A stretch of 64,000 nucleotides of DNA, from contig CAMBIX010000010.1 of assembly GCA_945867815.1 (NCBI GenBank), positions 1 to 64,000 on the forward strand, written 5' to 3'. A program made the position numbers and the translations under genes. Shown here piece by piece: positions 4,581 through 7,415 of the stretch. Under the pieces are notes generated by a model, which saw nothing but the letters and a program-made list of their open reading frames with translations, was not told the DNA's origin and ran no database searches. Source of the DNA: an uncultured Veillonellaceae bacterium. Its GTDB lineage: Bacteria; Bacillota; Negativicutes; Veillonellales; Veillonellaceae. Every line of letters begins with the position of its first letter. Position 1 is the stretch's first letter.

Positions 4581-5201
4581 CTATAATCCTAATAAAATAC
4601 TCGCATCCGTAAATAACTCCCACACCGCTTGACTACAAGCTCCTAATACTTGATCGGAGGCAGGAGAGACGATAAAGATAAGAAGAATAATAAAGCTAAA
4701 ACGTTCAAAGTGATAGTAGGCTTCTTCTAGACTCCTAGGTAAGAAAGCTGAAATAACGTGAGAACCATCAAGCGGGGGAATGGGGATTAGGTTAAAGATA
4801 CCGAAGTTAATATTAAGTACAATCATAAGACGTAGGATAAGTAAAAGACCATAAGAGGCACTATCATACACTATTGTAAGTACCAAGAAGGCAATAAAGG
4901 CGATAATAAAATTCATAAGAGGCCCTGCTAGGGCAATACAAGCTTCGCCTAAGCGCCGGTGCTTTAATTGATAAGGGTTAAACATAACGGGTTTCGCCCA
5001 GCCAAAATGGAAGAAGAATAACATAATTAGTCCTAGCCAGTCAATGTGCGCAAGGGGATTGATGGTTAATCGCCCCATATCACCTGGCGTAGAATCGCCA
5101 AACCAAGTAGCCACTAGGGCGTGGGCGAATTCGTGAAAGACCATGGCTACAATAACGGCCGGTAAGGTAGCTAGTAAAATAGTGGGATCTAAGTTAAACA
5201 T
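4581..5201 (-). CDS. site-2 protease family (M50) membrane metalloprotease
   Basis: A 206-residue multi-spanning membrane protein of the short S2P/YwhC-like branch. It has the zinc motif HEFAH at residues 23-27 and the second-half motif NLIPIPPLDG at residues 137-146, whose Asp145 would be the third ligand. The conserved GPLMNF (about residues 93-98) lies between them. There is no PDZ domain, unlike RseP. RBS AGGAG sits 6 nt before the ATG on the minus strand. The substrate is unknown. It is the only minus-strand gene I accept in the window and it ends at a shared bidirectional terminator. Confidence 0.88.
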   Translation of the reverse strand: MFNLDPTILLATLPAVIVAMVFHEFAHALVATWFGDSTPGDMGRLTINPLAHIDWLGLIMLFFFHFGWAKPVMFNPYQLKHRRLGEACIALAGPLMNFIIAFIAFLVLTIVYDSASYGLLLILRLMIVLNINFGIFNLIPIPPLDGSHVISAFLPRSLEEAYYHFERFSFIILLIFIVSPASDQVLGACSQAVWELFTDASILLGL

Positions 5202-5569
5202 GAGTTACTCCTAGTAGTTAGTACTTATAAATAAGGTCAAAATAGAATATATTATGAGGCGACTTCTTCCTGACAAGAAGAAAATATAGGCCTATAAAGC
5301 TTATGAAAAGGCTTATAACGACAATAAATTTTATACAAAACGTGTATATTTAGTAGGAAAATAGCTTATTGTTTGCGATTTTACATGAAGGACAATTCAT
5401 GTAAAACAAGTCTGTATTTACTAAATCGATTTAAGTCAGATATAAAATCCTTTATAGTATAGCGGATTTTAGGCGTTAGGGAAAGAGTTGGGGGAAAAAC
5501 CAATAAAGAAATCTTTCCCTTAGTAAGGTTAAGCAAGAAGAATTTTCCATAAGGAAAAAGAATTAGGAT
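5202..5569. other. AT-rich intergenic region with an 11-bp inverted repeat
   Basis: This divergent spacer lies between the protease (-) and the five-HTH gene (+). It contains an exact inverted repeat, TTTTACATGAA (5379-5389) and TTCATGTAAAA (5396-5406), around the 6-nt spacer GGACAA. Its place between two divergent genes fits an operator, though an RNA hairpin is also possible. I see no convincing gene; an antisense reading across 5381-5710 overlaps the promoter and start of the next gene. Confidence 0.45.
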
Positions 5570-5598
5570 TTGCAAAAGTCTGTCTGATTGGCTATACT
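5570..5598 (+). promoter_or_regulatory. sigma-70 promoter of the five-HTH gene
   Basis: TTGCAA (5570-5575) and TATACT (5593-5598) are exactly 17 bp apart. The expected start point is about 5605, inside the palindrome at 5603-5619. Confidence 0.75.
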
Positions 5599-5630: not shown

Positions 5631-6410
5631 ATGAAGAAGAAAAGACAGACGGGGATTACTAAAAGACGTGCTATATATATTCCTCGGCCTTTATTGGATG
5701 ATTTATACACAAAGCAAGGTAAGACGACGTGGGAGATTGCTAAGCTTTTACATTGTAGTCAGGATACGATTTGGCGGCGCTTAAAAGAATATTACATTCC
5801 TACCAGATCGCTACGGCTTGATTTACCTTTAGAGGAAATACGACGGTTGTATATACAAGAAGGTTGGGGCTGTAAATTAATTGGGAAGTATTTGGGGTGC
5901 TCACATACGACGGTTGCGGCTCGCTTGCGAGATATGGGGATTTTACGACCAGGCATACCGCGTAAGCCTAAACAGGATGTACAAACCAGCCAAATTGTGA
6001 AGGCTTATCGAGCTGGCCATAGTAGTGGTGCTATTGCTCATCAGTTTAAGTTATCCCAATGGGATGTGCTGCACCGCCTCCATAAGGCTAGAGAACCGCT
6101 CCGAGGTGGCCATAAACGGTATCATTTAGATAAACAGGCCATTCGCCATCTGTATGAGGAAAAGAAATTATCGACTACGCAAATTGCTCGCTTGTATAAT
6201 ATTAAGTCTTGTACAGTGGCAGCTAGACTTCGTGAAATGGGAGTCGTCTTACGAGGTAATCGTTTAAAATTAGATACAGTAGAGGTAAGGAGGCAGTATC
6301 AAGCAGGAACATCGGTTATGAAAATTGCGGAACGTATGGGCTGTTCATATACGGCGATTAGGAAACGAGTTTATGATTTACGCTTAGAAAAAGGGTCGGT
6401 CAATGCTTAA
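5631..6410 (+). CDS. protein made of five tandem helix-turn-helix units
   Basis: A 259-residue basic protein that appears to be nothing but DNA-binding repeats. Five units of about 40 residues recur with a period near 50, at residues 21-60, 68-108, 120-160, 170-210 and 217-256. Each shows a helix, then I-A-x-x-(L/F)-x-(C/I)-S as the turn, then a recognition helix. Examples are TTWEIAKLLHCSQDTIWRRL, LIGKYLGCSHTTVAARLRDM, TTQIARLYNIKSCTVAARL and VMKIAERMGCSYTAIRKRV. Units 2 and 4 share TVAARLR-(D/E)-MG. No catalytic or ligand domain is visible. RBS GGAGGAG is ideal. Similar single units occur in resolvase and homing-endonuclease tails, but I know no named family for this five-unit form. Confidence 0.75.
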   Translation: MKKKRQTGITKRRAIYIPRPLLDDLYTKQGKTTWEIAKLLHCSQDTIWRRLKEYYIPTRSLRLDLPLEEIRRLYIQEGWGCKLIGKYLGCSHTTVAARLRDMGILRPGIPRKPKQDVQTSQIVKAYRAGHSSGAIAHQFKLSQWDVLHRLHKAREPLRGGHKRYHLDKQAIRHLYEEKKLSTTQIARLYNIKSCTVAARLREMGVVLRGNRLKLDTVEVRRQYQAGTSVMKIAERMGCSYTAIRKRVYDLRLEKGSVNA

Positions 6411-6417
6411 CTTCCTC

Positions 6418-6447
6418 TTGCCCATTAAAAAGCCTATCGAGTATACT
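6418..6447 (+). promoter_or_regulatory. putative promoter of the TauE-like permease gene
   Basis: TTGCCC (6418-6423) and TATACT (6442-6447) are separated by 18 bp, within the short gap after the five-HTH gene. Confidence 0.5.
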
Positions 6448-6485: not shown

Positions 6486-7415
6486 ATGGAAGTGTTGAGT
6501 GTATTAGTGCCATTTTTCTTATTGGGTGTAGTGGCCACGATATTATCTAAATTTACAGGCATTACCTTGTCTATGTTTTTAGCACCAGCCATATTATATT
6601 TCGGAGCGACGCCAGAAGAAACAGTTATTTTTATGTTAACATTTACTTTATATACAGCCTTCACCATGCAGACGCAGGATGTGCGCTTAGATGTAAAGCA
6701 TTTCACCTTTTTTAAAGGTTGGTGGGCTATTTTACCTGTTGTAGTTACTTTGGGTATCGCTTTTTGGTTACCTATTTTGGGTATTGGTCTTTTTATATTC
6801 TATTTTGTTATGGAATTGTTGGCGGCTATGTATCAGCGTATTGATAAGGCGCATCGCCCAAGTCCTAAGGCCGTAGGTTGGACATCCTTTTTGGCTAGCG
6901 TTACTTGTCTAGTGGGTTTAAGTCTTGTGCGGTTTATACCAGCTCATTTTTATTTTTTAGGTGTAGGCCTTGCTATTTTAATTTTGACGGCTTTTGCTTA
7001 TTATGCAGGTAAACATCGGTCAGCCTTTCGTGCTAGCTGGGGATACCTTTGGGGGCTAACTGGATTTTTACTTGGCCTGTTTGGCATTGAAGGTAGTGAT
7101 TGGGTTCGGGGATTAATCAGGTCTTATCGGAGCCCTATTGATGCGATGATTCCAGTAGCTGTGATTATGGCTTCTTTCTTAGGGACTATGTATTCTTTTG
7201 CCTTATACGGTAATTTTTCAGTACCTGCTTTTGCGGCAGCTATTGGGGCGGCCATAGGGATTCGTTTTGTTGGATTACCATCGTATGATAAGTCGGGTCC
7301 TTTCTCTATTCTTACCATTGGGTTTGCCATATTAGCTGTCTTCCTTTTGTATCTAGTGTCGCCAGTACCAACAGGATTTGAACATATTAATCAGCTTTTC
7401 AACCAGCAAATTTAG
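6486..7415 (+). CDS. multi-spanning membrane protein, TSUP (TauE/SafE)-like permease
   Basis: A 309-residue protein with about eight to nine hydrophobic helices and small polar loops. The N-terminal half (FLLGVVATILSKFTGITLSM) and the Gly/Pro-rich second half resemble anion exporters of the TauE/SafE group, but I see no decisive motif. The ATG at 6486 is chosen over 6468 because GATAGGAGGAAG lies directly before it. A terminator follows. The substrate is unknown; family assignment is moderate. Confidence 0.55.
   Translation: MEVLSVLVPFFLLGVVATILSKFTGITLSMFLAPAILYFGATPEETVIFMLTFTLYTAFTMQTQDVRLDVKHFTFFKGWWAILPVVVTLGIAFWLPILGIGLFIFYFVMELLAAMYQRIDKAHRPSPKAVGWTSFLASVTCLVGLSLVRFIPAHFYFLGVGLAILILTAFAYYAGKHRSAFRASWGYLWGLTGFLLGLFGIEGSDWVRGLIRSYRSPIDAMIPVAVIMASFLGTMYSFALYGNFSVPAFAAAIGAAIGIRFVGLPSYDKSGPFSILTIGFAILAVFLLYLVSPVPTGFEHINQLFNQQI

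Follow-up and report, generated by a model that had tools for sequence, protein, structure and literature searches.

The 64,000-nucleotide stretch analysed here, hereafter the window, carries at positions 5631–6410 of its plus strand a gene for a protein of 259 amino acids, its ATG preceded by GGAGGAG. In an AlphaFold model built with 28 orthologs as input, the protein consists of 15 helices that form five three-helix helix-turn-helix (HTH) units, whose limits follow the predicted helices and a unit HMM made from the HTH units of the orthologs. Unit 1 (residues 19–53, positions 5685–5789, plus strand as for all five) has helices at residues 19–28, 33–40 and 44–53 and the recognition helix CSQDTIWRRL. 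It is followed by unit 2 (residues 67–101, positions 5829–5933; helices 67–76, 81–88 and 92–101; CSHTTVAARL), unit 3 (residues 119–152, positions 5985–6086; helices 119–127, 132–138 and 143–152; LSQWDVLHRL), unit 4 (residues 168–202, positions 6132–6236; helices 168–177, 182–189 and 193–202; IKSCTVAARL) and unit 5 (residues 216–249, positions 6276–6377; helices 216–224, 229–236 and 240–249; CSYTAIRKRV). The mean pLDDT of the model is 80.6, mostly 75–94 inside the units, and the linkers of 13–17 residues are predicted to be flexible; because the pTM is 0.30, the model does not determine the mutual arrangement of the five units.

Unit starts at residues 19, 67, 119, 168 and 216 give a period of 48–52 residues. 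The pairwise similarity summed over the five units is 362, as compared with 182 ± 12 (maximum 225) for shuffles, and by this comparison the units are judged to be related repeats. The unit HMM finds exactly five of them in the protein, each with E ≤ 2e-11. In family-model searches, generic HTH models cover four to five stretches of the protein, and three Pfam models exceed their cut-offs (PF13384, 58.8 bits vs 24.6; PF02796, 48.4 vs 23.8; PF13936, 45.9 vs 27), while no enzymatic or other additional domain is detected. Membership in HTH_7, HTH_23 or HTH_38, which are resolvase and homeodomain-like HTH families, is a fold-level assignment only; an identity as resolvase or transposase was rejected, as neither this protein nor the aligned orthologs carry a catalytic domain. 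The sequence-only reading, which had placed five tandem HTH units with a period near 50 residues and no other domain at these positions and had called for no fewer than four predicted HTH folds, agrees with these results, all five units being predicted to fold as HTHs.

A putative sigma-70-like promoter, recognised by consensus match only, precedes the gene (TTGCAA-17-TATACT, positions 5570–5598, plus strand). Upstream lies a divergent gene for an M50-type membrane metalloprotease (positions 4581–5201, minus strand), which is linked to the HTH gene in its own genus and in genera g2 and g4 and is not linked to it in Veillonella. Downstream, a gene for a TauE/SafE-like membrane protein of 309 residues (positions 6486–7415, plus strand) follows a second promoter predicted by consensus match only (TTGCCC-18-TATACT, positions 6418–6447, plus strand), and a TATACT-type -10 element is found at the same place in most orthologous intergenic regions. 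Against the Pfam TauE model the membrane protein scores 17.8 bits, below the cut-off of 32.6. Gene neighbours had been said to give no hint; this does not hold, since the membrane-protein gene is adjacent to and codirectional with the HTH gene in 23 of 23 loci, with the other neighbours varying. Of the 61 genomes of the order, 60 have this membrane-protein gene, including genomes without the HTH gene, in which its surroundings differ. It is thus older than the HTH gene, and it is a constant neighbour that need not be the target of the HTH protein. Upstream of it, no diverged multi-HTH gene was found in other families. In family f3 (loci L222–L232), it comes straight after pyrF and pyrE, which hints at a pyrimidine-related substrate for the membrane protein.

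Distribution and related architectures

The HTH-array gene is present as a single copy in all 28 genomes of its own family, across four genera, and is absent from all 33 other genomes of the same order; in genome G001, one extra weak and partial HTH match accompanies the ortholog. Genus g3 is Veillonella, and its orthologs include that of V. parvula SKV38 (NZ_LR778174.1), which was reached with a Veillonella-only alignment as search profile. A pattern and profile scan of genome contigs with the window protein as query gave no match. The orthologs retain the bare array layout, and none of those aligned has an enzymatic domain that could be missing here. Most have five units, whereas the unit HMM counts six in genus g2 and in G013, and the ortholog of G007 (L028) has only four, with no fifth unit readable in any frame just downstream. 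The recognition helices are near-constant inside a genus and different between genera. No phage match to the five-HTH protein was found. Because it is single copy in the 28 family genomes and lacks phage matches, the gene is regarded as a family-specific core gene and not as a mobile element, which the sequence-only reading had considered. Seven records of large Streptomyces plasmids (including L242) match the window protein with about 30% identity over 80% of its length; the matching genes are HTH-array-like and mostly annotated as hypothetical proteins. They were not accepted as orthologs and were judged to have a similar HTH composition instead.

The closest known layout is that of Cbp1 (NF040595; NMR structure 2lvs), the CRISPR DNA repeat-binding protein of the Sulfolobales, which likewise consists solely of HTHs joined by short linkers and reads a single long site. 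Its three HTH domains are likely products of duplication (PMC10883916). Unlike this archaeal protein of three units that binds CRISPR repeats, the window protein has five, and its orthologs have four to six. It is not filed as Cbp1 because it falls below the cut-off of NF040595 (54.2 vs 140 bits) and differs from the three-unit count. The view that no named family has such a layout is upheld. In a PDB fold search with Foldseek, no match had E < 0.001; 8vd6, which ranked first, stems from a paper on protein design and is not informative. The weak matches (E > 0.1) include Pax5/Pax6, Mos1 and SETMAR, whose paired-domain or mariner-type double HTHs place two serial HTHs on a composite site; they differ in having two units within larger proteins. 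The five-HTH protein is a multi-HTH regulator layout in a new form, for which a new role is proposed below.

Promoter elements shared with competence genes

Upstream regions were compared over 220 bp, with 150 null upstream regions from the same family as control. In genus g4, those of the HTH gene, of comEA (comEA-comEC) and of comGA (comGA/pilT) share elements of 27–48 bp. The HTH gene has a long, partly palindromic element directly in front of its -35 region. Scanning genome-wide for the core of this element retrieved the same long element between comEA and a divergent M29 peptidase gene, and a second search found it at the comGA/pilT-type operon as well. In genome G024, the elements read CTCATACTGACAGTGCGGATGCGCACCAATGGT at the HTH gene, CTCATACTGTCAGTGCCAATGCGCACCATTGGT at comGA and ACTCATACCATTAGTGCGTATGCGCACCAGTGGTGGAATTAAGTAGGA at comEA, the match spanning 48 bp between comEA and comGA and 33 bp between the HTH gene and comGA. 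The palindromic halves are TCAYACCAWTGGTRTGA and CTCAYACTGWCAGTRYGAG. None of the 150 null regions reaches the scores of the shared elements in G024 and G026, nor those of the HTH-comEA and HTH-comGA pairs in G025. The pairings of the HTH gene are weaker in G021 and G022 (3–4/150), and not all three pairings reach significance in G021. In G023, comEA and comGA have the element in common (0/150). No significant pairing of the HTH gene was obtained within 220 bp in G023 and G027, the element of the latter being located beyond this distance.

The conserved, promoter-proximal half-element of g4, written as TGGTRN{2,4}WTTN{0,1}AGYAGGA, has 15 matches in seven g4 genomes vs two for the reversed control. 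Ten of them are at comEA or comGA, four lie inside unrelated coding genes and one is at a toxin-antitoxin-like pair, so that comEA and comGA account for 10 of the 11 non-coding matches. This last match is a competence-type element of g4 that precedes a RelE-like/XRE-like toxin-antitoxin gene pair in G026 (L211, G026:C5:107187).

The element common to the HTH gene and comGA in genus g2 is ACACTCCTACCAGT, with a score reached by no null region in G002 and G005 and by 18/150 in G001. In G003, a diverged species of this genus, both have changed to ACMCTCTTAACAGTCA (0/150), and this joint change is read as co-variation of the two elements. The best HTH-comEA match in g2, TCTTTCATAATATCTCC, was dropped because it consists of nothing but the ribosome-binding site and the start of the divergent genes. 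These promoters carry shared long elements in at least two of the genera, and the elements are restricted to few places.

In the genome from which the window comes, comEA and comGA share 20 exact bases, CTTTTCCTTATTAGGAAGAT, a match attained by none of 178 null regions. A putative regulatory element, TTTTCCATAAGGAAAAAGAATTAGGAT (TTTTCCATAAGGAAAAAGAATTAGGATT; positions 5543–5569, plus strand), abuts the -35 hexamer of the HTH gene and is related to TTTTCCTTATTAGGAAGATGACTAGGAT upstream of comEA. As ungapped local matching missed the element of the HTH gene, gapped alignment was used for this genome; the HTH-comEA alignment, which 18/178 null regions equal in score, is weak when taken alone. A possible second, adjoining half-element, TCTTTCCCTTAGTAAGGTTAAGCAAGAAGA (positions 5512–5541, plus strand), resembles the element upstream of comGA in gapped alignment, with 3/178 (HTH-comGA) and 1/178 null regions scoring as high. 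Gapped alignment lends the element of the HTH gene only modest support. The pattern TTTTCCN{3,5}AGGAARA has three matches in the 1.97 Mb of this genome, one each at comEA, comGA and the HTH gene and each oriented towards the gene, and it is supportive only because it was written after the sites had been seen and its reversed control also gives three matches.

Hairpins of the GTGACYAWTAG type are common to the HTH gene and comEA in Veillonella, with 6–7/150 null regions scoring as high at best, and the region upstream of comGA is without this element. Many matches to the hairpin element were set aside as ordinary terminators between convergent genes, and the ambiguous site before rnhB/yraN-comM was left out of the count. 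A recurrent hairpin, GGTTCCTATTGGTCACCTAGGTGACTATTAGGAACC, occurs up to eight times per Veillonella genome (L113, L116, L129, L131, L133 and similar loci). It is found at convergent-gene terminators, in front of the HTH gene, between rnhB and yraN-comM, and also in front of the genes of a small family of secreted proteins (MKRCITLLSLGLCLA...).

The competence genes were identified by family models. ComEA and ComEC score above the cut-offs of TIGR00426 and TIGR00360, respectively, with ComEC also matching Pfam Competence, and the GspE/ComGA-like and PilT-like ATPases were likewise confirmed. Veillonella, an oral bacterium, is naturally competent; the literature searched yielded no regulator for this competence. 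The V. parvula locus VPAR_RS05490-5435, which is of the comGA-pilT type, is needed for transformation, its deletion leaving no transformants (PMC5397411). This locus begins with the GspE/ComGA-like and PilT-like ATPases.

A proposed regulator of natural transformation

Because its promoter shares long signatures with competence genes in the best-supported relatives, the five-HTH protein probably regulates natural transformation and would be a regulator not described before. The reading that we somewhat favour is that of an autoregulated competence regulator recognising a long composite site at its own promoter and at those of comEA-comEC and comGA-pilT. The protein would regulate transcription by binding specific sequences; it has five HTH units in series and no other part, and the units would read successive segments of a single long site of about 30–50 bp. 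We infer that it binds the shared elements, both in its own promoter, which would make it autoregulated, and in the promoters of the two com operons, where it would sit at the -35 region or beside it. Binding would set the competence state, most likely by activation of the com operons; the position beside the -35 region would suit an activator, but the protein may also act as a repressor. The recognition helices vary by genus in parallel with the elements. Among the roles left open by the sequence-only reading, which had suggested a long composite DNA site as target, regulation, specifically of competence genes, is the best supported; such a site is likewise upheld as a plausible target.

Known master regulators of competence are ComK, which is autoregulated, ComX/SigX, and Sxy/TfoX with CRP. 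The proposed control of comEA-comEC and comG-type operons resembles theirs; to our knowledge, their folds are different and none is a chain of HTHs.

Alternatively, the binder of the element might be a different protein, with the HTH gene among its targets. The HTH gene would then belong to the competence regulon without being its regulator, another, dimeric factor would bind, and the protein would be a regulated DNA-binding effector, coating or handling incoming DNA for example. The palindromic halves speak for this explanation, as partly palindromic elements suit a dimeric regulator no less than a serial array. We nevertheless consider it unlikely, since recognition helices and elements change together from genus to genus, the element of up to 48 bp is longer than a single dimer needs, and a regulator gene that carries the site of the regulon is usually autoregulated.

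We think it rather improbable that the protein acts locally, regulating the neighbouring TauE/SafE-like membrane protein, and that the similarity to the com promoters is incidental or secondary. The unbroken codirectional adjacency amid changing neighbours would fit such a role, as would the TATACT-type promoter element in most intergenic regions. However, the membrane protein also occurs in families without the HTH gene, for example beside pyrF-pyrE, and no long shared element was found in front of its gene. By our estimate, the least probable roles are those in nucleoid organisation, in a mobile element or, as for Cbp1, in the binding of CRISPR repeats: Cbp1 is the top NCBIfam model and the CRISPR repeat-binding protein the second Foldseek match, but the score stays far under the cut-off and the match has E 0.18, phage matches are missing, and the candidate sites, confined to a handful of promoters, are too few for the genome-wide nucleoid role once envisaged.

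A bolder form of the autoregulated-regulator reading is put forward tentatively, as one that we would not yet back. The master regulator of transformation in the Veillonellaceae would be a transcription factor of a new kind, in which four to six arrayed HTHs read a composite operator of about 50 bp unit by unit, the operator drifting between genera together with the recognition helices. If this were true, the arrays and their drifting operators could be used to learn the code by which such units read DNA. HTH chains of varying unit number (four to six) and varying recognition helix, for which several genera supply matching long sites, would form a data set on the serial reading of composite DNA. 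If the proposal of a competence regulator is right, competence in Veillonella could be studied by deleting a single gene and following three promoters.
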